A DNA stretch of 34,567 nucleotides from Halomarina oriensis (GTDB lineage: Archaea > Halobacteriota > Halobacteria > Halobacteriales > Haloarculaceae). Shown one piece after another: positions 4,056 to 31,062 of this stretch. A program made the translations under genes and the position numbers. Location: contig NZ_WSZK01000004.1 of assembly GCF_009791395.1 (NCBI RefSeq), positions 1 through 34,567 on the forward strand, given 5' to 3'. The notes below the pieces were generated by a model, which worked only from the letters and a program-made list of their open reading frames with translations, did not search any database and was not told the DNA's origin. Every line of letters begins with the position of its first letter. The first letter of the stretch is position 1.

Positions 4056-4415
4056 CTATGGAGAATAGTTGAGGATTAGGACTCTGAATACGCCGCCGCT
4101 ATTGAATCCTATCAGAGAGACGGTGAACCGGTCTGTTCCCTGAGAGTCTTTCACATCAATGTCAACCTGCTCATCGTTGTTGAATCGTTCTCTGAGCACT
4201 TTTTGAGTCTCAGCGTCCAGATTCGAGAGCGTCCCTTTGTACGCACGGTGGCCGTTTTTCTGCATCTGGTCTCGGAACTCAAACGTCGCATCGTTCTGGA
4301 GAGCACCGTTCTCGCCGTAGATCGTTACCGTGTCCCCGTTGCTAGCGGAGAAATGGTGATTTGACACATATTGATTAGCTGAGTCTCCGGAAAAAGCGTG
4401 TCGTGTTGTTACCAT
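4056..4415 (-). CDS. Hypothetical 119-residue protein
   Basis: The start is the ATG inside the left arm of palindrome B (MVTTRHAFSG). The frame extends upstream to 4580 but would then overlap the divergent zinc-knuckle gene. The sequence is a mix of beta-like segments (DTVTIYGENG, TDRFTVSLIGF, GGVFRVLILN) and an Asn/Gln-rich middle. It is less acidic and more AT-rich than its neighbours, which suggests a different origin. No membrane segment or family is recognised. Confidence 0.6.
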   Translation of the reverse strand: MVTTRHAFSGDSANQYVSNHHFSASNGDTVTIYGENGALQNDATFEFRDQMQKNGHRAYKGTLSNLDAETQKVLRERFNNDEQVDIDVKDSQGTDRFTVSLIGFNSGGVFRVLILNYSP

Positions 4416-4444
4416 ACACCTATAGTAATTCGGATGTATGGTAA
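4409..4444. repeat. Interrupted palindrome, copy B, between divergent genes
   Basis: TTACCATACA (4409-4418) and TGTATGGTAA (4435-4444) form exact 10-bp arms with 16 bases between. The copy lies between two divergent genes. The minus gene starts within its left arm and the plus gene starts 5 bases after its right arm. A TATA-like CTATAGTAAT for the plus gene lies in the spacer, so here the palindrome could act as a shared operator. Confidence 0.85.
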
Positions 4445-4448
4445 AAGT

Positions 4449-5876
4449 ATGAGCACCGATGATGCAACATTCGAGTGTGAGTCGTGCGGGAAGCAGGTCG
4501 AAGGCGCCCCTATGCGGGTGACTCGGTGTTTCGACTGTGGTGGGACAATGGAACTCGTTGGCGACGTCGACGACCTCCAAGAGACGAGTGACGCCGTCGA
4601 CGAGGACGACGAGGTAAACTTCGACCCAACGCGAGAGGAGATTTCAGGACGCTGTCGGGCCATCAAGAGATCGACCGGGACACGGTGTACGAGTGGCGCG
4701 TACCGGGGAACTGAGGACCAACTGTGCCTGCTCCACGACGACGCGAAGGATGTCGAACTCGTCAACGCCGAGGAGTCGACCGACCAGACCGCGCTCGTCG
4801 ACGGCGGCGCGGTCCGAGACCACCCGGACGACTCGAAGTGCGCGGCCATCGTTCGAGGGAGCGGGAAGCAGTGTCGCTCGAACGCCGAGGACCTGTGCGG
4901 TCAGCACGAGGGGATGCGCCGGCTACTCCGTGTCGACGAGGTGGACGGCGCACCACTGGTCGACCTCCGCGACGAGCTGATAGACGTCGGCGCGTCGGGC
5001 TACGACGCCTACCGTCTCGCCGCCGAGTTTGACACTCCCGAGGCGATGTGGCACGCCTCTTCGGGCTACGAGAGCCGTACGGTGGCCGGCGAGGCGATGA
5101 CCGCCGACTGGCTGTCGATGAGGGCGCACCTCGCGGCCGATCTCCTCGACAATGACCCCCACCCCCACCCGTTCCTGTTCGACTCCTGCATCGCCATCTC
5201 CGACTCGTCGGTCTACGACGACGGCCGGTGTCGCAGCGGCGGTCACAGCGCTCGGCTCACGTGCGGCGTCCACGATGGGGCGAAGAACCTCCGAACAGTG
5301 TTCGACGAGGGCGAGAAGTACGCCAACGCGTTCACGCCGTGCGTTGCCGATATGACCGATGCGCTGCTCGTTGAGTGGCGGGCGGACGGCGAGGAGGCCA
5401 TCGTCATCGTCGAAGACGGATGGGGCGTGTTCCGGATGGAGGCCGGAGTAGTCGTCGTCAACGAGCAGGAGGACGTCGACGCGGTCAAGGCCGTCGCAGC
5501 GGACGGTGGGGAGCGCCCGGACCTCCCGGCGTACCTGCTCGACCCCGTGGAGTCGGACGCTCGAACCCCCGATGAACTCCGGGCGCTCGCCGCGTACGCC
5601 GAGGCGCTCGCTGATGACCGCGAGGCCGCCGCCGAAGCCGAGGCCACCCAACAGGACGACGCCAACGAGGACGGCGACAGCGCCCGCGAGAAGCCCGACA
5701 GAAACGAGGAACGAGAGGCGGACCTTCGCGCCGACCGACCCGACGACGTCCCCTCCGGCGCTGGTCTCGTGATGAAGCACATCAACGGGAACTGGTACTA
5801 CTACTGGCAGTACCGAGAGCCGGGGAAAGAGACACCCACGCAGGACTACGCGGGCGCGGTAAACCCAAAGAGATGA
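4449..5876 (+). CDS. Multi-zinc-knuckle protein with C-terminal WYYYWQYR motif
   Basis: The product has 475 residues. A CxxC...CxxC ribbon (Cys10, 13, 27, 30) is followed by three related knuckles of the form C-x10-13-C-x7-12-C-x2-H: Cys69/Cys80/Cys93/His96, Cys131/Cys142/Cys150/His153 and Cys247/Cys261/Cys272/His275. Between the third and fourth lies a possible helix-hairpin-helix region (LIDVGASGYDAYRLAAEFDT). Residues 395-440 are an Ala/Glu/Asp-rich linker. The end (NGNWYYYWQYREPGKE, then AVNPKR) resembles a short Tyr/Trp-rich motif found at the ends of other haloarchaeal plasmid proteins. A nucleic-acid-binding role is likely. The start at 4449 follows a TATA-like box 20-29 bases upstream; an ATG at 4434 is an alternative. 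Confidence 0.8.
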   Translation: MSTDDATFECESCGKQVEGAPMRVTRCFDCGGTMELVGDVDDLQETSDAVDEDDEVNFDPTREEISGRCRAIKRSTGTRCTSGAYRGTEDQLCLLHDDAKDVELVNAEESTDQTALVDGGAVRDHPDDSKCAAIVRGSGKQCRSNAEDLCGQHEGMRRLLRVDEVDGAPLVDLRDELIDVGASGYDAYRLAAEFDTPEAMWHASSGYESRTVAGEAMTADWLSMRAHLAADLLDNDPHPHPFLFDSCIAISDSSVYDDGRCRSGGHSARLTCGVHDGAKNLRTVFDEGEKYANAFTPCVADMTDALLVEWRADGEEAIVIVEDGWGVFRMEAGVVVVNEQEDVDAVKAVAADGGERPDLPAYLLDPVESDARTPDELRALAAYAEALADDREAAAEAEATQQDDANEDGDSAREKPDRNEEREADLRADRPDDVPSGAGLVMKHINGNWYYYWQYREPGKETPTQDYAGAVNPKR

Positions 5877-7793: not shown

Positions 7794-7841
7794 GGGGCTT
7801 TCGCCCCGTACTTCTATAGAATAGAACTAACACCATAAAGG
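7794..7841 (-). promoter_or_regulatory. Promoter P1: TATA, dyad operator, GAAA-loop leader hairpin
   Basis: Reading leftward: TATA-like CCTTTATG (7834-7841), dyad TTCTAT-TCT-ATAGAA (7812-7826), hairpin GGGGC-GAAA-GCCCC (7794-7807), then CCAAACACC and the ATG at 7782. The same order of parts occurs at P2 and P3. Confidence 0.75.
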
Positions 7842-8936: not shown

Positions 8937-9395
8937 ATGCAAAGCGATATTGCAACTCTCGGCGCGGAACTGTTCACGAACTTCGACTACGCGGCGTCGG
9001 ACGCTGATGACCGGCGAACGTGGCGTGCTCGCACCCAGTCGATGCTCGTACTCCCAGAGACGGACACCGAAGGCGATGCGACGGGCCTCTACCACGTGTT
9101 CAGTCAGTCGGGTAGCAACTACCTCGCGGACCCCGAACTCGACTCTTGCACCTGCCCGGACATGGCGCACAACGACCCTGAGAACGGATGTAAGCACATC
9201 CGGCGCGTCTCCCTCGCCATCGACGAAACGTCGCTCCCCGCCCGCACAGAGAGCACTGACGACTACTGGACCGAGTTCGACGCGACGACCACGAACATCG
9301 CCGAGCAGATAGAGAACCTCAACGAGCGTATCCAGCAACTCGGAACGCTCCTCGACGCCGGCCTCGTCGCCAAGGCGGAATTGGCCGACGAGTAG
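8937..9395 (+). CDS. SWIM zinc-finger protein (152 residues)
   Basis: A SWIM-type finger CxCx(n)CxH is formed by Cys71, Cys73, Cys85 and His87 (DSCTCPDMAHNDPENGCKHI), after a strand pair (GLYHVFSQSGSNYLAD) typical of the domain. Residues 115-150 form a likely coiled coil (IAEQIENLNERIQQLGTLLD). SWIM domains bind DNA or partner proteins, and small single-domain forms are common in haloarchaeal genomes and viruses. The start is fixed by the conserved leader of promoter P3. It is followed by promoter P4, so it is probably monocistronic. Confidence 0.85.
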   Translation: MQSDIATLGAELFTNFDYAASDADDRRTWRARTQSMLVLPETDTEGDATGLYHVFSQSGSNYLADPELDSCTCPDMAHNDPENGCKHIRRVSLAIDETSLPARTESTDDYWTEFDATTTNIAEQIENLNERIQQLGTLLDAGLVAKAELADE

Positions 9396-13261: not shown

Positions 13262-13304
13262 GACCCCGCGCGGGAATCGAACCCGCGTTAAACCACTCGG
13301 GGCT
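13262..13304 (-). other. tRNA 3'-end-like fragment, candidate attachment site
   Basis: The minus strand reads GCGGGTTCGATTCCCGC, a complete T-arm with a 5-bp stem and TTCGATT loop, followed by GCGGGGT as the 3' acceptor strand. Upstream the bases AGCCCCGAGTGGTTTAAC do not complete a tRNA, and no anticodon arm is seen. Archaeal elements often integrate into tRNA 3' ends and carry such a fragment as their att site. Whether it is used is unknown. Confidence 0.5.
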
Positions 13305-13340
13305 TACCATACAGTCGTGCGGAGAAGAACTGTATGGTAA
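13304..13340. repeat. Interrupted palindrome, copy C, beside the tRNA-like fragment
   Basis: TTACCATACAGT (13304-13315) and ACTGTATGGTAA (13329-13340) are exact 12-bp arms with a 13-base spacer, the longest arms of the four copies. It abuts the tRNA-like fragment, which makes a recombination role thinkable here. Confidence 0.9.
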
Positions 13341-16605: not shown

Positions 16606-16713
16606 CTACGCGCTGGTGTGAGCGCGCTGGTCCGTTTCAGGACCACTCACGAGGGCAGCCGAGCGAGACAGAGAGATGTGGCTCTCTGGACCCGAACGAT
16701 TAAGCTCTCGGAG

Positions 16714-16794
16714 CAGAAACGACCGGGTACGAGAGAACCCCCCCGGCACGAGGCTGTTGTCGCAGCCGATGATGGCCGGGGTTGGTCGTTTCTG
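16714..16794 (-). ncRNA. Three-way-junction structure in the rep operon leader
   Basis: An 11-bp outer stem (CAGAAACGACC 16714-16724 with GGTCGTTTCTG 16784-16794) encloses two hairpins with almost no junction bases: GGGT/ACCC (16725-16728, 16737-16740) and CCCCGGC/GCCGGGG (16741-16747, 16775-16781), the latter capped by GGCTG/CAGCC (16752-16756, 16763-16767). It begins about 20 bases after the predicted transcription start of the leftward rep operon and ends about 110 bases before the first ATG. It may be a regulatory RNA fold, a small RNA on either strand, or a DNA cruciform of the origin. Confidence 0.55.
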
Positions 16795-16840
16795 GCGCTG
16801 TTGTTCGCCTAGCTTTGCCTGTGGTGGTTTCCCGAGGCAC

Positions 16841-17743: not shown

Positions 17744-18413
17744 GGCCCTCGGAACACCTCCAAGGGACCGACCTTGTCTGCCCCCGGATTGCACCGAGTC
17801 GTGCCGATTTTTTCAGACCCCTTCATAACGTGTTGAATAGTACACGTCGGGTCTGCGGCAGAACTAAGGCGATTCGTTCTCCACATCCGACTGTTCCCCC
17901 GGACCGGGGTATGGCTTTCGCGGTTCATCGTTTGGCGGGCTGTGTAAACCGGCCCGTACGGTAGCCCGAACCCCGGACTGGGGGAACGCGACGATAACCA
18001 CGGGCGTTGTGTCCTGGCAGACTTGTGCGCCCGTGGTGCTAGTCGCCGGTTAACTTGGACTGATGACTCATCAGATATAACATTGTTCGTAAGCGGATTG
18101 AATCGTGTAACATCAAATTCAGTCTCGCTAATAGCATCCCAGTTATCCTGTGCTTGGTCTCTGTCGTTTGAGAGGGGTTTATCACCTCCCGCGTGGGTAT
18201 CTTGCATTGCTGTTTCGGCAGCACCGGGCCGGGGTCTACACCCCCGGTCCACTTTCGTTCTGACGTGAACCCCATGGACCCGGTGACTGTCCAGTCGCTA
18301 CGAAATCCTGTTGGAACATAAATGTAGCCCTATACAGGTTCACCAACACTCTGTATGGGGCTAACTTATCATTGTTCGTAGGTGTTAACCGCCGTTCTCC
18401 GGAAGTACAGCCA
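17744..18413. other. Long structured non-coding region with many inverted repeats
   Basis: I see dyads ACGTGT/ACACGT (17828-17847), an 18-base near-perfect inverted pair (17893-17910 with 17970-17987) whose left half is itself a GC palindrome, ACCACGGGCG/CGCCCGTGGT (17997-18006, 18028-18037), TGATGA-C-TCATCA (18061-18073) and CCGGGGT/ACCCCCGG (18229-18247). CATTGTTCGTA occurs twice (18081-18091, 18370-18380). A minus-strand frame from 18207 begins acidic and protein-like but then loses coding character. The region may be an origin, a structured RNA or decayed coding DNA. Confidence 0.5.
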
Positions 18414-22970: not shown

Positions 22971-25900
22971 TCAGGCCCTCCTCGACGCCGCGAAGCCGAC
23001 GACGGAGAGTGAAATCGCGAACATCAACACCGTCTGCGGGATTTCGAGGTAGCCCATCACGGCGAAGATGCCCGTCAGCCCGGCCGTGATGACTGCGCCG
23101 GTCGGGGCATGGATGAAGCCGAACACGCCCGCAACAAGCAGGATAACGCCTCCAAGCGCCACTTTTGTCCAGAACTCACTGAGTCCCAGCGGTGTCGCGG
23201 TCCCATCGGCCCCGACGCGCCACGTCCCGTCGATGTGCTGGGCGGGTTCGTCGGCGTCGCCAGTCGGGTAGAGTTCGGCCTCCCACGAGATGGTCCACTC
23301 TGTCTCGGATTCATCTGCGGGAATCGGGATGTTGGCGTTGTAGGACCCGACGGTCCCATACGCGTAGAGTTCGTCGAGGACATTCGACGGGTCACCGCGC
23401 TCGTGAATGACGATGTGGAGGTCCTCGATACGGCGATCTCGCGCGTTGAACTTGAACAGGAGTTCGCGACTGCCGATTGTCTCGTTCGTCACGACCGACT
23501 CAACCTCCCACTCGTAGGTCGTCCCGCGCTCGAGGCCGAACGTCTGACCCTCGACGATGAGGTTCCGTGTCTGCTGGGCGAATGAGGAGTCGCCACGGTA
23601 GCCACCGAGGTTCCGGCGGTCACCCTCATCACGGATTGCGAGGCGGTAGTCTTCCTCGTCGACGAGGTCGAAGCAGACCGAGTTCGCCGCGCCGAAGTAG
23701 CCGCCGGCCATGTCTCGCCACGACCCATTGATGTGCTGCTGGACGATGAGCCAGCTATTGTCCGGCGCGAACCCCGCACCGCGTGAGTCGAGGGCAAAAC
23801 ACTGGCTGTAGCCTGCTGCGGACGAGGAATCGATGAGGTTCGTGTGACGCTCGACGGTCCCGTACGGGTTGTCCACGAGCATCGTCCGCGTGGTGTAGTT
23901 CGCCGCAGAGATGCGGAGCGCCAACTGCTCATCGGGGAGCTGTCCGAACGTGATGGTCCCATCAGAAGTCGCTCGTTCGGTGACGAAGTTCGACATCGAT
24001 GCCGTCCCGACCATCTCGACGGTCACCTCCTTGGTGAGCAGTTGCGTTCCGTTCTCATGATGAAGATAGAGAATCATCGGACTCCTGAACCCACGCTGTT
24101 CGGTCTCGACGGTGTGGCCGTACTCGTCGGTCGCTGCGGCCGACCACGTGTGATGACCCCCGGGAATCTCACCGGGTGAATACTGCACGGTGCCTTCGGC
24201 GTTGACCGTCTGGGTCGAGACCACCTCGCCATCGATTCGGATGTCGACAGTGACGCTATCGCTCTTCGCCGTCCCAAGGTCCGGGTCGGTGACGTTGACG
24301 GCGAGATGCTCGGAGGTGCCGTTGAGCTTCCCACCATCTTCGGGCATCCAGAGGTCGAGCGTCGGTTCGACTGTCTTAGACATGACCCCTTCACCGTATA
24401 GACGGGCGAGCGCGTTCGGTCCGGTCGCGGTAAACTCAACCTCGGTCGTCACGGTGTCAGTCGTCGGGCGAGTCCAAGTGGCCGAGTGGTTCCCCGTCGT
24501 GGTGAACGTCGCCTGCGTGAGGACCGTCCCGTCAGCGGCCTTCCACGTGACGTCCGCCTTTGCGTTCTGGAGTTCAAGGTCAGCGAACCCCTCGATAGTG
24601 TTCGACATCGAATGCTCGTTCGAGTAGGTCGACGACTCGGGGAGTTGTGCAGCCGGGTTGTCCGCGAGGAACTGGACCTGCTCGCTCGTGAGAATCGTCG
24701 AATCCATCAGTCGGACATCGTCGAGTGTCACATTCGCGTGGCGATAGTCGCCATACGACCCGAGCGTCATCGGTTCAGAGTTCTGACTCGGCGATTTCGG
24801 GACGTTGACGGTTTTGATGAGCTCGCCATCGACGTACACGTCAATCTCCCCCGACGAGTGAACGACCGCCAGATGCGACCAGGTACTATCGAACAGCTCC
24901 GGTGTGTCGACGGTCGCATCCCAATCGTCATGCTCGAGGAACAGCGTCCCGTCGTTCGCACCGATCGCCCAACCCGGTTGCAGTGCGTTCGATTTCTTCG
25001 TCACCAACCCAACACGGAATTCATCGGGCGGGGAGACCTCTCTGTCCGCTTTGACCCACATCGAGATAGAGTACCCAAAGCTGAGGTCCGTCCGGTACGA
25101 ATCTGGCACGCTGAGGCTGTCGTCGTCGTGATAGCCGTCGAATCGGAGCGCCGTTCCCGACGCGCCACTCACCCACTCCGGCGAGTTCTGAAACGTCCCG
25201 TCGAACGTATTGCTCGGACCGACCGTCCCGTATGCCGTCGAACCCACCCCTGCGTCAAGCGCGAGTCGTTCACTCGTCACCGGACTCAGCTTGCTGTTTG
25301 GCGACTCCGTGAGCCGATAGAGTTGCCCTGGTGCGAGTGCGTCGTCAAACGTCCGGATGTCGTGATAGCGCATCTCCTGCGAGCCGCCGTAGTAGCTGTT
25401 CTCGAATGGACCAGTGATGTCGACGCTCCCGACTGCGACCGTCGTCTGCGTGACGAACCGTCCGTTCAGTCGAAGCGTCATCGTATCTCCTCGACGAGTG
25501 AGCGAGACCGTGTGTTTCTCGCCCGCTTGAGCGTAGTCTGTGGGCGGTATCGGTCCAGATGAACCGCTGTCGAGCCCGAAGACACCCGTATTATCTGAGC
25601 CCCCGCGCACAATCGCCTCGACCTCCTCGTTCCCCTGGCGGTTCCAGAAGAACGCTATCGCGCCGGTCGACCCGTCGTCACCCGCACCGAATCGCATCAC
25701 CTTACCGGATTCCGGCGTGAACTGCATCGCCACAGTCCACGTTGTGTCACTCCCGAAATTGACGCTCGACGCTGGAAGTTCCAGTTCCCCACCTCGCATG
25801 TCGAGACCATCAGTCTGCCATTGGTAGCTGCCAGAAAGTGACCCATCGAACTCACTCACGTCATCGTAGAGGGTTTGAGAGATGGAATCTATCGGATAGT

Positions 25901-26141
25901 GCGTCCGGGTCTGTGAGAGGTGGGTGTCGTGGCTGACGAAGCCGGCTTCTCCACTTCGTTCGACCTCAGCGTTCGTCGTTGAGCCGTTCGATAGTTCGCT
26001 CGCCGTTGTGTGCATGCTGGCGAACGCGCCGTGGGTCGCGGCGACCGGTGCGGAACTGGCAACGAGGAGCGTGAGGATGACTGCGACGACCGCGAGAATC
26101 GTCCCTGCGAGCGAGACGTCGATGGTTCCGGGCCGATGCAT
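22971..26141 (-). CDS. Large surface protein with two LamG/ConA-like lectin domains
   Basis: The 1056-residue product has a signal sequence at about residues 9-36 (AGTILAVVAVILTLLVASSA). Two concanavalin-like/LamG domains follow, at about 100-285 (TWTVAMQFTPESGK, HTVSLTRRGDTMTLRLNGRF, MRYHDIRTFDDALAPGQLY) and 325-490 (GTALRFDGYHDDDSLSVPDS, GYSISMWVKAD, EIDVYVDGELIKTVNVPKS). The next 400 residues look like beta-sandwich domains (DIRIDGEVVSTQTV, VTVEMVGTASM). About three membrane helices close the protein (KVALGGVILLVAGVFGFIHA, then two more). It should be a cell- or particle-surface adhesin that binds glycans. It is the best candidate for the recognition protein of this cluster. Confidence 0.85.
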   Translation of the reverse strand: MHRPGTIDVSLAGTILAVVAVILTLLVASSAPVAATHGAFASMHTTASELSNGSTTNAEVERSGEAGFVSHDTHLSQTRTHYPIDSISQTLYDDVSEFDGSLSGSYQWQTDGLDMRGGELELPASSVNFGSDTTWTVAMQFTPESGKVMRFGAGDDGSTGAIAFFWNRQGNEEVEAIVRGGSDNTGVFGLDSGSSGPIPPTDYAQAGEKHTVSLTRRGDTMTLRLNGRFVTQTTVAVGSVDITGPFENSYYGGSQEMRYHDIRTFDDALAPGQLYRLTESPNSKLSPVTSERLALDAGVGSTAYGTVGPSNTFDGTFQNSPEWVSGASGTALRFDGYHDDDSLSVPDSYRTDLSFGYSISMWVKADREVSPPDEFRVGLVTKKSNALQPGWAIGANDGTLFLEHDDWDATVDTPELFDSTWSHLAVVHSSGEIDVYVDGELIKTVNVPKSPSQNSEPMTLGSYGDYRHANVTLDDVRLMDSTILTSEQVQFLADNPAAQLPESSTYSNEHSMSNTIEGFADLELQNAKADVTWKAADGTVLTQATFTTTGNHSATWTRPTTDTVTTEVEFTATGPNALARLYGEGVMSKTVEPTLDLWMPEDGGKLNGTSEHLAVNVTDPDLGTAKSDSVTVDIRIDGEVVSTQTVNAEGTVQYSPGEIPGGHHTWSAAATDEYGHTVETEQRGFRSPMILYLHHENGTQLLTKEVTVEMVGTASMSNFVTERATSDGTITFGQLPDEQLALRISAANYTTRTMLVDNPYGTVERHTNLIDSSSAAGYSQCFALDSRGAGFAPDNSWLIVQQHINGSWRDMAGGYFGAANSVCFDLVDEEDYRLAIRDEGDRRNLGGYRGDSSFAQQTRNLIVEGQTFGLERGTTYEWEVESVVTNETIGSRELLFKFNARDRRIEDLHIVIHERGDPSNVLDELYAYGTVGSYNANIPIPADESETEWTISWEAELYPTGDADEPAQHIDGTWRVGADGTATPLGLSEFWTKVALGGVILLVAGVFGFIHAPTGAVITAGLTGIFAVMGYLEIPQTVLMFAISLSVVGFAASRRA

Positions 26142-26416: not shown

Positions 26417-26713
26417 TCAGGCCCTCGCTGAGAGAACGACGGCCATCACGATGGTGAACACCACCACGAGGAACGTCCCGACGACCGGGAGTGCGTTCCA
26501 CGCATCCGTGATGCGCTGGTTCATCGTCGCCGCCTCTTGTTCGTACTCGGTGCCGTCGTTCTGGTCGTCAGAGAAGTTCTGGACCTTCGTTATCGGTGTC
26601 GTCATCATCGAAAGAATCAGCGCGATGAACGCGAACGCGATGAGCATCAACACGAGCTGATACCCGACGCCCCGGTCATCGTCGCGGAGTCGCTCGGCGA
26701 GACTCGGACTCAT
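26417..26713 (-). CDS. Small pilin-like membrane protein (98 residues)
   Basis: The ATG overlaps the stop of the 1450-residue gene. The N-terminus LAERLRDDDRGVGYQLVLML, followed by a long hydrophobic helix, looks like an archaeal prepilin or flagellin leader (charged, then Gly, then hydrophobic). The middle is Gln/Asn/Glu-rich (FSDDQNDGTEYEQEAATMNQ), and a second helix (VVGTFLVVVFTIVMAVVLSA) makes it unlike a true pilin. It may be a two-span subunit of the envelope assembly. Confidence 0.65.
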   Translation of the reverse strand: MSPSLAERLRDDDRGVGYQLVLMLIAFAFIALILSMMTTPITKVQNFSDDQNDGTEYEQEAATMNQRITDAWNALPVVGTFLVVVFTIVMAVVLSARA

Positions 26714-29700
26714 CGGCCGAACACCTCGCGGAGCGATGCCACATCGTTCGTAAAGCGCTTCGACCACTCGCTGGACGGACCGCTACCGAGCAGGTCGTCG
26801 AGAGACTGCTGGCGACCGCGCGCGAACATCTCGCTCTCGGATTCGAGTTCGGTCTCGAATTCGAGTTCCATCTCCATCTCGAACTCGCTTTCCCACTCCA
26901 TCGCGCGCTCAACCTCGAACGCCGATTCCCACTCGGTAGCGAACTCGGACTCCCACTCTGATTCCCACTCACTCGCCCATTCCGACTCGATGAGCGACTC
27001 GAATTCGGTGTCGACCTTGCTCTCGATAGCCGTCTCGACGAGCGCCTCCTGGTCGCCCACGATGTCGCGCATGTCGACACGCTGCTCGCCGGCGACGTCG
27101 GCGACGATGGCCGCCGGGTCGAACGTCGATGTCTCCTCAGCGAAGCCCGCGACTTCTGCGCGGCCGGCGATGTCTGCGAGGTCAAACGCGTCTCGCGAAC
27201 GATTGTCGAGTTCGAGTTCGGCGAGACGGTTGGGATTGACCTCGTCGCCCATCCGGAGCAACGTCATCTGGTCGCCGCTGCGGGCGGGCGTGAACCCCGA
27301 TTCGATGCGGCCCGTCGACGGCCCGGTAAGGTCGTCGATGTCTTCGGTCAGGCCCATCCGCATCCAGGCCTTCTCGGTGTCGCTCCAGCCGTCGACTTCG
27401 AGGTCGACGGCGTCGGCGTCAAGCGAGTAGTCTCGGCGGTCGGGCACGTTACCATACAATCGGTTGGAACCGACCTGTATGGTAAACTCGCTGGGGAGCG
27501 ACTTCGCGTTCCACCACTTCGTCTGTGCGTTGACGAGACCACTTCGGACCGACTCGTCGAACGACGTACGTCGGGCGTCGAGGCCAGCGCTAAGCTGTCC
27601 CCGCGCGAGCGCCGCGTCGATGGGGAGGTCGGTGTCCCAATCGCTGAGCGAGTCCGTTGCGGCGTCGAACTGTCCACGAAGTCGCGCAGCGGAGAGGCCG
27701 ACGTCGGCCCGGCCGCTGCGAAAGTCTTGGAGAGGACGCTTCACCCGCTCTTTCGTTCGGAAAAGGCGGTCTGACGCCCGCCGTCGGCGAGTGTCGTACG
27801 TGTCGGCGAGGCGGCCCCGGGCGATACCGAGGTCGATGCCGAGGTCGTTCCGGACGTCGTCGAGACGAGAGGACTGGCGGTCCTGCTCGAATCGGTAGCC
27901 GGCCCGCCACGCGGCGTCGTTGAGGTTCGCCTGTGACTGAAGCGGCGCGGGAAGGCGCTGACGGGCGTTCTCGCGCGCTCGGGGGCCGAGGCCGGCCATC
28001 CAGTCCTCGGTGTTCCACTTCGCCGTCTGTCCGCGCACAGCGGCCGACAAACCCGCGTCACGCCCCCGGCCAGGAAGCGACCCGGCCCACTCCTCGATGT
28101 CCCACTTCGACGACTGGGCGCGGAGCGCTGCGGAGCCAGCAGCACTCCGGGTCCGGCCGGGCAGGGAGCCGACGATGTCCTCGGTGGCCCACCGACCCGC
28201 CTGAGCGCGAAGCGCGCCATCCATCGCGAGGCCCCGCGCCGTCGGCGTCGACGAGTCGGCGAGGTCACCGAGAGCGATCTCGGCGTCCCACCAGGCACGC
28301 TGGGTTCGCGCAGTGCCGGTCGTCGCCAGCCCTCGAAGGCGGTCGGGAGTCGCGGCGAGCGCCTCACGGCCCTTCCACGCCATCGTCTGGGTGTCAACGG
28401 CCGTTCGGAGCGCTCGGTCTCGCGTGCTGTCGCGAGCCTGCTCGAACCAGTCCTGTCGGTTCTGGCGGGAGCGAGCGGAGCGCCGGCCCAGCGACCGGGC
28501 CGTGGCGTCGAGGCCCGCCTGCGTCGGTGTGAGGCGCGTCTTCGCGTTGTCGATGCCGAGGCGGGCATCGTCGAGGCGACGGTTCGTCCCGGCGAGCGCC
28601 TTCTTCGTGTCGTACTTGAGCGCGGGCGAGAGTTTCACGAGGCCGGCATCGGCATCGCGCTCGACCGTCACCCAGTCGGAGGCGTCGAAGCCCGACCCGT
28701 CGTCCCGACCGGGGAGTCGGTCACGAACTGAGAAGTCCTGATCGGCCCGAAACTCGCCGACACGTTGCTTCGCCCCCCGGTAGGCGCGCTTGCCCTCGCG
28801 GATGATGATTTCCTCGTTGTCGATGCGGCCGCCGGGGAACTTCGCCGCGACGGAGGGGAACAGTCGCGTCGCCCCCGTCGAGAGCAGTTCCTCGCCGGGC
28901 TGGATGGCCCACGCCGCCGACCGACCGGCCGTCGACGAGACCCGTGAGGCTCCCGCGATGGCCCCGTAGGAGCCGACGAGTGAGCCGACGAGTTGGCCGG
29001 CCCCCTTCGATGGATTCGCCGTCACGCTGTCCCACGCGGAGACTGCTGCCATCTCTGCGGTAGCGCTCACCTTTTTGCGAGCGTCTTTGCCCTCGCCGGC
29101 GAGTTCTCGTCCACCGTACCACGCGGCGAGTTCGCCGAACTCGTCGAGGCCGCGAACGGTCGCCGGAACGTTTGCGATGGCGAGTGCGCCCTCGGTCGTC
29201 CCGGCTGCGAAGTTGCCGACGAAGTTCGTTCCGGTCGTCCGGCGTTCGAGCATCCCGACCGGCGAAATCGTCGAGGTGAGTTCGCCGGCGTCGCGAGCGA
29301 AGCCCTGGTAGTCTCTCGAAAGGCCGTCGAGGAAGTCCTCTCCACCCGGAACGAAGGCGACACGGCCGCCGTCGTCACCGAACCTCTCGGGCCTCTGGTT
29401 CGCCTCTTGGTACGCTTGCTGCCCCTCCTGGGCGAACGAGACGTCCCACGCACCGCCCTCGTAGTCGACGAGGACCTCACTCGGGTCGAAGCCCGGCGTC
29501 TCGGCGGCGACCTCCCGCTTCGTCCGCTGAGAGACCGTCGCGACGCCAGAGTCGGTGAGCGCGACGTCGTAGGTCGTCCGACCGTCGAGGTCGCCCGTGC
29601 GGGTTTTGACGAGTTCTGTCGCGCCGTCGACGCGGAAGTCCTCCGCGTTCAGGCCGGTCGACGCCTCGACCCGCTCGCGCATGGTGTCTTTCGGGTCGAC

Positions 29701-31062
29701 CCAGCGCTCGGTCTGTTCTTCGAGACGGCCGTCCTCGGCCGCGTTCAACACGTCGGTCCCCGTCCCATAGACGTCGAACGGGTCCTCGACGACTCGGACC
29801 TTTCCGGGGTTCGCTGCTCGGTCGAGGGCCGCGTCGATTTCGTCCGACTGGGCGGCGTTCCGGCGCTGCTCCATGTTCACCTGAGCGGCATCAGCGAGAA
29901 TCGTCGCTGTCTGACGACGACGCTCCTGCTCGCTCGTCGAGAACTGTGCGGAGTAGCGGCCGTCCTCGCCCTGTGTCAACTCGAACTGCTCGTCGGCGAG
30001 GCCGGTCGTCGCGCGGACCTGCTGGCGCATCGCATCTTCGAGGCCCGTGTCGGTGAATTCGACGTTCAGCCTGCCGTCTTCCTCGGTGATGGCGTAGTCC
30101 TCGGCGGAGAACTCCTCACCGAAGTAGTACGACTCGGTAACCGTGTCGCCCGACCCCAGCGTGGCCTCAGCGACAATTTCGCCGTCGTCGCCGTACCGGA
30201 TACTCGTCGAGTCGACGTCGCTGTACTGGGCGTTGAGCGACTGGTACGCGATGTCCAACCGGCCGCTCTTCGAGGCGAGACGACGTTCGAGGGTCTCGCG
30301 CTCGCGGTCGGCGATGGCGGCCTGCCCCTGCTCGGTCAGGGTCGCCGAGAACTCGTCGGCCTGCTCGTCGTAGATGATACGCACCTGCTCGGAATCCGTC
30401 AGCCAGTCGTTCGAGGCGAGGATGTCCTGCTCGGCCCTCGTCGCCGCATCGCCCAGACGACCGCCGTCCTCCTCGACGCCCTGCCACGTCCCGAGGTTCT
30501 GAGAGGTCGAGAGGTCGTAACTGAGAATGGACGTCCCGCTCCCGCTGGAGTTCGTCAAGGACCTCGACGACGATGCTGACCTACCCCGACCACTCGTGTC
30601 GCGCCGGGTCGGTTCTGGTTGCTCGCGGACGGTCTCGCCGTGGATGCCACGAATAGCGTCTTCGACGCTGCTCGACCGAGTGTTGCCGCCGTCACTCGTG
30701 TTCTGAGTGTCGCGAGTGTTACTGGTGTTTCCGGCGTCGCCAGTGTTGCTCGCGTCCCGGTCATTGCTAGTGTTGCTGGCGTTCCTGTCGTCGCTGGTAT
30801 CCGGTTCCCAGATGACACCAGTAGGAGTGTTTCGAGTGTTGCTGTTGTTACTGGTATTACTGCTGTTGCTTGTGTTTCTGGTGTTTCGGGTGTTGCTGTT
30901 GTTGCTGGAGCGCGTCGGTTCGGGGCGAGACTGCTCACGAAGCATCTCCTGAGCCGCCTCGACGGTTTCCCGGTCACTCATCTGGTCGTCGCTGTCCGAC
31001 GACGAAGACGAGGAGGACGACCCAGAGCCACTCGACGAACGGAAGCGTGAGGTGTCGGCCAT
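26710..31062 (-). CDS. Giant repeat protein (1450 residues), low-complexity ends
   Basis: Residues 1-30 are Ser-rich. Residues about 53-129 are Asn/Thr/Ser/Arg repeats encoded by a 9-bp DNA repeat. Residues 230-620 are mixed alpha/beta with repeated DxxTR..VxAxTGL-type units (MRERVEASTGLNAEDFRVDG, MRQQVRATTGLADEQFELTQ). Residues 630-770 are Ala/Gly-rich and amphipathic. Residues about 885-1035 hold about 33-residue repeats with LRAQ.SKW..E.W.GSLPGR. Residues 1342-1412 are Glu/Trp/Phe repeats (ESEWASEWESEWESEFATEW). No family, signal or clear membrane span is recognised. Length and helical repeats recall scaffold or tape-measure-like proteins, which is inference only. It is the central gene of the cluster. 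Confidence 0.8.
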   Translation of the reverse strand: MADTSRFRSSSGSGSSSSSSSSDSDDQMSDRETVEAAQEMLREQSRPEPTRSSNNSNTRNTRNTSNSSNTSNNSNTRNTPTGVIWEPDTSDDRNASNTSNDRDASNTGDAGNTSNTRDTQNTSDGGNTRSSSVEDAIRGIHGETVREQPEPTRRDTSGRGRSASSSRSLTNSSGSGTSILSYDLSTSQNLGTWQGVEEDGGRLGDAATRAEQDILASNDWLTDSEQVRIIYDEQADEFSATLTEQGQAAIADRERETLERRLASKSGRLDIAYQSLNAQYSDVDSTSIRYGDDGEIVAEATLGSGDTVTESYYFGEEFSAEDYAITEEDGRLNVEFTDTGLEDAMRQQVRATTGLADEQFELTQGEDGRYSAQFSTSEQERRRQTATILADAAQVNMEQRRNAAQSDEIDAALDRAANPGKVRVVEDPFDVYGTGTDVLNAAEDGRLEEQTERWVDPKDTMRERVEASTGLNAEDFRVDGATELVKTRTGDLDGRTTYDVALTDSGVATVSQRTKREVAAETPGFDPSEVLVDYEGGAWDVSFAQEGQQAYQEANQRPERFGDDGGRVAFVPGGEDFLDGLSRDYQGFARDAGELTSTISPVGMLERRTTGTNFVGNFAAGTTEGALAIANVPATVRGLDEFGELAAWYGGRELAGEGKDARKKVSATAEMAAVSAWDSVTANPSKGAGQLVGSLVGSYGAIAGASRVSSTAGRSAAWAIQPGEELLSTGATRLFPSVAAKFPGGRIDNEEIIIREGKRAYRGAKQRVGEFRADQDFSVRDRLPGRDDGSGFDASDWVTVERDADAGLVKLSPALKYDTKKALAGTNRRLDDARLGIDNAKTRLTPTQAGLDATARSLGRRSARSRQNRQDWFEQARDSTRDRALRTAVDTQTMAWKGREALAATPDRLRGLATTGTARTQRAWWDAEIALGDLADSSTPTARGLAMDGALRAQAGRWATEDIVGSLPGRTRSAAGSAALRAQSSKWDIEEWAGSLPGRGRDAGLSAAVRGQTAKWNTEDWMAGLGPRARENARQRLPAPLQSQANLNDAAWRAGYRFEQDRQSSRLDDVRNDLGIDLGIARGRLADTYDTRRRRASDRLFRTKERVKRPLQDFRSGRADVGLSAARLRGQFDAATDSLSDWDTDLPIDAALARGQLSAGLDARRTSFDESVRSGLVNAQTKWWNAKSLPSEFTIQVGSNRLYGNVPDRRDYSLDADAVDLEVDGWSDTEKAWMRMGLTEDIDDLTGPSTGRIESGFTPARSGDQMTLLRMGDEVNPNRLAELELDNRSRDAFDLADIAGRAEVAGFAEETSTFDPAAIVADVAGEQRVDMRDIVGDQEALVETAIESKVDTEFESLIESEWASEWESEWESEFATEWESAFEVERAMEWESEFEMEMELEFETELESESEMFARGRQQSLDDLLGSGPSSEWSKRFTNDVASLREVFGR
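27449..27485. repeat. Interrupted palindrome, copy D, inside the giant gene
   Basis: TTACCATACA (27449-27458) and TGTATGGTAA (27476-27485) are exact 10-bp arms. The spacer contains its own dyad, CGGTT/AACCG. Here the site is translated as part of the protein (FTIQVGSNRLYGN) without breaking the frame. Confidence 0.85.
30678..30905. repeat. Array of about 23 degenerate 9-bp repeats
   Basis: Plus-strand unit TGGTGTTNC (minus GNAACACCA). Nine contiguous units run 30825-30905, and about fourteen more degenerate units run 30678-30803 in a register shifted by three bases. Units identical to those near parA include GTAATACCA-like and GAAACACCA. The array encodes the Asn-Thr-Ser/Arg repeats of the giant protein. 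Confidence 0.9.

Follow-up and report, generated by a model that had tools for sequence, protein, structure and literature searches.

RepH operon leader in the window

The window is the whole stretch of DNA that was analysed, namely an entire 34,567-base contig (C34) of a 4.07-Mb assembly. A gene for a large RepH replication protein is located on its minus strand, and a three-way junction spanning 16714-16794, read on the same strand, is predicted to lie within the leader of the RepH operon. The features of the operon, in the order of the minus strand, are as follows.

16888-16867, minus strand: perfect 22-bp palindrome GTGTCTGACGCGCGTCAGACAC, operator-like (sequence)
16846-16840, minus strand: TATA-like box TTTTATG of the rep (sense) promoter (sequence)
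16794-16784, minus strand: 5' arm of the outer stem P1, CAGAAACGACC (sequence and fold; the homologous arm covaries in other leaders)
16783-16782, minus strand: two unpaired A at the junction (sequence and fold)
16781-16741, minus strand: hairpin H1 of the three-way junction (sequence and fold)
16740-16725, minus strand: hairpin H2 of the three-way junction (sequence and fold)
16724-16714, minus strand: 3' arm of the outer stem P1, GGTCGTTTCTG (sequence and fold)
16688-16669, minus strand: downstream hairpin D, CAGAGAGCCACATCTCTCTG (sequence; counterpart AGAG..CATCTCT in other leaders)
16605-16498, minus strand: 35-aa ORF whose stop overlaps the RepH start (ATGA) (sequence)
16501-13550, minus strand: RepH replication protein, 983 aa (phrog_17376 'replication protein', E 1.7e-120; tblastn to RepH plasmids)

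The sense RNA is predicted to start near 16819, a position inferred from archaeal TATA spacing without transcript data. A preliminary description of this DNA had placed the structure between the rep promoter and the first ORF, which is true on the minus strand, and its account of an 11-bp perfect outer stem, two hairpins and two unpaired junction bases was confirmed by both sequence and fold with exact coordinates. Its three nested perfect stems are reduced to two, P1 and H2, as no other stem of the junction is perfect and H1 has a 7-bp stem, then an internal loop and more short stems.

The minimum free energy of 16714-16794 is -44.6 kcal/mol on the minus strand and -47.0 kcal/mol on the plus strand, values reached by 0/200 dinucleotide shuffles on each strand (z -6.5 and -6.2, respectively), so that the folding of both strands, proposed earlier as a check, found that both fold extremely well. 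In a scan of 4,060 81-nt window folds covering both strands with 25 shuffles per fold, the exact junction coordinates being added as two of the 4,060, the two strands of the junction gave the two most extreme z-scores. The claim that the structure is hard to explain by chance thus stands for the fold, with z about -6, but not for the 11-bp stem by itself, since the window contains seven perfect inverted repeats of 11-12 bp with a span of at most 140 nt, compared with one to five in five Markov shuffles, and the outer stem alone is therefore unremarkable. The junction fold is real in the window.

Related leaders in other haloarchaeal replicons

DNA similarity with the window leader matched no plasmid record, and across 146 genomes of the taxonomic family its sole returns apart from the window were two short matches, 27-30 bases long. 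RepH homologues were therefore gathered by protein; for 40 of them the surrounding sequence was collected, at most 7 kb each, and the upstream regions of 18 loci (window included) were inspected by eye. Several loci share a common leader order, comprising an operator palindrome GTCTGACG..CGTCAGAC, a TATA element, a hairpin, the outer stem with its two hairpins, a box, another hairpin and rep; the box reads AATAAGCG or CTTAAT, and the hairpin behind it reads AGAG..CATCTCT and is followed by the rep start. The operator half-site GTC[T/A]GACG or CGTC[T/A]GAC occurs as an exact match in 22 of 27 elements examined, 60-320 nt upstream of the box, the background being 0.033 per 260 nt, and the window carries CGTC[T/A]GAC upstream of its sense TATA. 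BLASTN with two Haloarcula leaders uncovered five more elements on the named plasmids pNG300, pNG400 and pHsi55 and two H. halophila plasmids. The H. halophila leader stands before a gene for a 239-aa protein, which has no match to the RepH set. A scan of viral contigs with RepH found no relative.

Two covariance models were built from these leaders. R1 comprises nine Haloarcula leaders. L038 and L058, whose outer arm had been shifted by MAFFT, were for that reason kept out of its training, and R1 recovered both out of sample (E about 5e-14). Searching the 146 genomes with R1 gave L096, L097, L099, L101 and others, in total 17 genomes at E <=1, several of them by chance. R2 was trained on 15 leaders without the window; of 392 genomes from the order, 23 matched it at E <=0.5, including a Natrialbaceae group whose assignment derives from named plasmids. 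The gene behind the leader in that group codes for a protein of 272-299 aa that has a coiled-coil-like stretch and matches no family above the curated cut-off. A single leader type therefore serves both RepH-like genes and at least one other class of gene. Three R2 matches (L129, L139 and L130; E 6e-5 to 0.01) were left out of further analysis, and the search pattern found no box in L143. Some weak model matches were accepted for their box, namely L107 (R1 E 0.75) and L131, L133, L134 and L135 (R2 E 0.02-0.10), and the promoter matrix described below is therefore favoured by their admission. Two further R2 matches, L132 and L136, were taken as noise. Rfam 15 gave nothing at the gathering threshold for the window and 14 loci with related leaders.

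Covariation and strand preference

In the A4 alignment of 15 leaders, 92.3% of the cells are paired and double-sided changes occur in 24 of 41 pairs, with a covariation score of 0.300 against 0.046-0.075 when the partners are slid by one to three columns. P1 is paired in 120/120 cells of this alignment and has double-sided changes in seven of its eight pairs. The larger A6 alignment gave similar values, with 89.2% of the cells paired, double-sided changes in 35/40 pairs, a score of 0.301 against 0.04-0.07 for the slid controls, and double-sided changes in all eight P1 pairs; its 33 rows, 31 of them distinct, include two places taken twice (L100, L112) and three opposite-strand partial matches (L051, L090, L091). 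Both alignments were fitted to the covariance model and are biased towards it, and the window is absent from both, being present only in an alignment-free swap test. In that test the P1 3' segments of 27 elements, some of them related to each other, paired better in total with their own upstream regions than with those of other elements (-706.5 vs -528.4 kcal/mol, sd 19.1), and 0/20,000 permutations matched the native pairing. The stem of the window ranks only 8 of 27, and four elements (L096, L112, L107, L133) rank 13th to 27th.

The compensatory changes observed in homologous leaders are contrary to the outcome that the preliminary description had named as refuting, and they support its proposal of a regulatory leader RNA for rep. 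We regard the existence of the structure and of a covarying family as very likely.

Concerning the strand, the 120 cells of P1 in A4, read as rep mRNA, are all paired and include 14 G-U, while A-C pairs are not tolerated; this favours the rep-mRNA strand. Whole-unit energies favour that strand only weakly: no more than 15 of 26 elements are more stable as the sense strand (Wilcoxon p 0.02), and for the whole unit of the window the opposite strand is the more stable one.

A pseudoknot between the first-hairpin loop GCTAAT and the box ATAAGC, suggested by RNAalifold, was dropped for lack of covariation, mismatches being seen by eye in L058, L088, L096, L097 and L099.

A predicted antisense promoter within the leader

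Downstream of P1 the opposite strand features a promoter-like sequence directed back into the junction.

16691-16698, plus strand: BRE-like CCCGAACG of the predicted antisense promoter (sequence, promoter matrix)
16699-16704, plus strand: TATA-like ATTAAG of the predicted antisense promoter (top matrix site, window untrained)
16725-16812, plus strand: predicted antisense RNA, start GGGTACG at 16725 at H2 (5' end inferred from the promoter)

The 3' limit given for the predicted RNA, 16812, is only that of the stretch that was folded. A gapless box-anchored alignment of the opposite strand, covering 35 elements with some variation, reads GGGGAAACG-CTTATT/TTTATA, then 20 nt, then AGGT(G) at the edge of H2, where TTTATA is the Natrialbaceae version and CTTATT occurs elsewhere; the consensus extends across 23 clusters. 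In the window, too, 20 nt separate the BRE/TATA box on the opposite strand from the edge of H2; this promoter-like sequence and its spacing are conserved. The haloarchaeal consensus is given as CGAAA for BRE and TTWT for TATA in one report (PMC4983044).

When a promoter matrix from the 23 clusters, window excluded, was run over the window, the plus-strand site ranked first of 69,034 with 15.2 bits versus 3.8 for the next; with the promoter positions alone it ranked only third. Random sequence of 1 Mb reached 15.4 bits at best, so a 15.2-bit match anywhere in the window by chance has a probability of roughly 7 per cent. With the window added to the matrix, only 14 of 44 RepH upstream regions scored above 8 bits on the antisense strand and two did so on the sense strand; the region upstream of the closest RepH relative (L047) did not exceed 8 bits. 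The R2 match in the window is weak (8.2 bits, E 0.59), yet it is the best of the window and lies at the right place, in full length and on the right strand. The narrower R1 did not find the window element, and R2 run over the whole assembly of the window did not list it, giving only another place at E 1.7. Upstream of its replicon gene the window also has the outer stem around one or two hairpins that marks the family, in its case two. Taken together, the window very probably belongs to this haloarchaeal rep-leader family, and the opposite-strand box is, on sequence evidence alone, a good candidate for an antisense promoter and likely to be one.

Duplicated sites were also observed. L115, L117 and L120 each have two same-strand promoter-matrix matches 305-557 nt apart in one upstream region, and in L115 both sites match the covariance model too. 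A second RepH-type replicon in the same assembly as the window (G000:C30, L071) has an antisense-strand matrix match of 15.5 bits near 4545 (+ strand of L071), an outer stem CCCGCCCC/GGGGCGGG and an operator half-site, with a 600-aa RepH ORF beginning about 1.8 kb downstream.

The leader in pNRC100 and phiH1

Two replicons that entered no training set, the classical haloarchaeal plasmid pNRC100 and the phage phiH1, carry the element. The repH upstream region of pNRC100 scores 28.7 bits in the promoter matrix, folds as P1-H1-H2 and has an R2 match (E 0.036) that is the best of 15.6 kb; its antisense RNA is predicted to begin near 9021 on the minus strand (NC_001869). As far as the available part of the report goes (PMC1447603), the replicating fragment of pNRC100 includes the repH upstream region, and the plasmid still replicated when sequence upstream of repH was interrupted or partly deleted; this fits an element that regulates and is not indispensable.

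The phage phiH1 gave 25.8 bits in the matrix with the next site at -5.3, and its R2 match (E 0.09) falls at the same place. From the promoter, its antisense +1 is predicted to lie at 35269, and the phiH1 record annotates the 5' end of T4' at 35264, which 'results from cleavage of a 2 kb primary transcript', an end 5 nt inside the predicted sense-antisense duplex. An antisense RNA (Tant) and an RNase attacking duplex ends are described for phiH, with Tant and the processing of the early lytic transcript T1 credited to Stolt and Zillig 1993, in the accessible portions of three accounts (PMC8707807, PMC4284463, PMC6210493). That Tant is the antisense RNA predicted here in phiH1 is an inference. 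On these partial sources, phiH resembles the window as a haloarchaeal replicon with repH and features an antisense RNA to an early transcript with cleaved duplex ends; in contrast to the present system it was reported for one phage, as immunity control, and in the portions available there is no mention of a conserved RNA family, a three-way junction or control of plasmid copy number.

Loop divergence among co-resident plasmids

The plasmids pNG200, pNG300 and pNG400 of one strain are identical at 124-129 of 133 positions outside H2, but at only 9/15, 11/30 and 13/30 positions in the H2 variable part. Similarly, two replicons of another strain (G031, C3/C7) share 126/133 positions outside H2 and 10/16 in the variable part, whereas the different-strain pairs pNG400/pHsi55 and G014/G031 C3 are identical at 12/12 H2 positions. 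Against this pattern, two replicons of one H. halophila cell (L090/L091) share the H2 loop. The H1 and H2 segments were cut with a hand-written pattern, and the loop-divergence pattern is therefore only suggestive; with few cases, the H2 divergence among co-resident plasmids agrees with the prediction, made below, that the loops set incompatibility. Between G014 and G031 C3 (L050 2756-2781 against L057), H1 is identical except for an exact inversion of the loop, TTGGCG versus CGCCAA, possibly a way to switch recognition specificity.

Proposed mechanism and alternatives

The reading we consider most likely, at a probability of roughly 0.7 and without transcript data, is that the leader is a structured RNA with an embedded antisense promoter serving antisense copy control; the inferred step of copy control itself we put at about 0.65-0.7. 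A sense RNA would start near 16819 from the operator-controlled promoter, fold into P1, H1 and H2, and run on through hairpin D into the 35-aa ORF and repH. An antisense RNA, whose production is inferred, would start at 16725 at the H2 edge and extend across H2 and then H1 in the direction of the sense start. It may pair with the leader, loops first, and so lower RepH expression, an effect that is likewise inferred; the lowering might proceed via cleavage at the ends of the RNA duplex, inferred by analogy with phiH. As antisense output would be proportional to plasmid number, copy number would be held down, and the antisense loops would set incompatibility.

The alternative that survives best, which we nevertheless consider unlikely, is a leader acting only in cis as a 5' UTR, in which translation or termination is controlled through binding of RepH, a host protein or a ligand to the junction, and in which the box is a conserved part of the RNA and not a promoter. 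Selection on the sense RNA, as shown by the covariation and the G-U bias, speaks for it, and constant spacing alone is no proof of a promoter, since the P1 core (AGAAGC, antisense strand) is equally fixed relative to the box. It is the character of the box region that this explanation leaves unaccounted for, with variants that keep TATA character (CTTATT, TTTATT, TTTATA, CTTAAG, ATTAAG), AAC/GAAAC before the box and a purine-rich start 20 nt away, together with the differences of H2, which adjoins the predicted start, between co-resident plasmids and the phiH1 transcript annotated as cleaved at the predicted antisense start region.

A DNA-level element, either a cruciform or a single-strand hairpin at a replication origin, is very doubtful. 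The cruciform at the origin had been among the initial suggestions, and it is disfavoured by G-U without A-C in P1, which points to RNA, and by the position of the family between a promoter and rep genes of several kinds. In its favour, both strands fold well in the window, the element lies upstream of a replication gene, and the replicating fragment of pNRC100 takes in the region upstream of repH in the part of that report available (PMC1447603). By eye, better origin candidates exist at 17890-18380, where there is an AT-rich region and another inverted repeat. A private, functionless fold outside the family, to which the weak covariance-model score of the window and the absence of any other DNA copy in 145 further family genomes except two 27-30-base matches might point, is the least credible reading, given that z-score, matrix rank, operator, sense TATA, hairpin D and gene context coincide where expected.

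Antisense copy control, which had also been proposed in the preliminary description, is thus supported at the sequence level, and it appears to be one device with the leader RNA; an antisense-promoter-like sequence inside the rep leader is what control of the CopA/CopT type requires. In CopA/CopT of plasmid R1 and in other bacterial rep leaders, the antisense promoter lies in the leader, stem-loops are the targets and loop changes alter incompatibility. The likeness extends to a predicted opposite-strand antisense promoter in the rep leader and to stem-loops as presumed targets, and it would extend to loops tied to incompatibility; the domain of life, the promoters and the rep protein are different. 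The present leader, for which no transcript has been shown, is further unlike CopA/CopT in its long outer stem around two hairpins and in the operator before its sense promoter.

In the titles and abstract beginnings of the open-licence literature searched, no antisense-RNA copy control of haloarchaeal plasmids or RepH-leader system of such kind is described. With somewhat less assurance than for the window itself, we lean towards a widespread, unrecognised archaeal module for antisense copy control and incompatibility, present in RepH plasmids (including pNRC100), phiH-like viruses and replicons whose downstream genes are quite different, where loop divergence or inversion in the two hairpins would create new incompatibility groups. 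How haloarchaea set copy number and keep many related plasmids per cell is poorly understood, and a conserved leader with an embedded antisense promoter offers a concrete mechanism, testable in the classical archaeal plasmid pNRC100. It would tie plasmid control to the phiH antisense RNA, the first reported in archaea, and would offer vector builders control of copy number and compatibility.

Other features of the window

An inverted repeat TTACCATACA...TGTATGGTAA occurs three times, at 4409-4444, 13304-13340 and 27449-27485, with arms of 10, 12 and 10 bp, and is possibly a protein-binding or recombination site. Between divergent ORFs, a long imperfect inverted repeat GTTCCCCCGGACCGGGG.../...CCCCGGACTGGGGGAAC at 17893-17990 is followed by an AT-rich stretch at 18040-18380, together an origin candidate by eye. 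On the minus strand, 22971-26141 encodes a 1056-aa protein with a Laminin_G_3 (ConA-like) domain, and 26710-31062 encodes a 1450-aa protein without a match in Pfam or PHROG. Two promoter-like sites, at 7839 on the minus strand and 8881 on the plus strand, have CTTTATG in common and TAGAAGTAC downstream of both, as if they were co-regulated.
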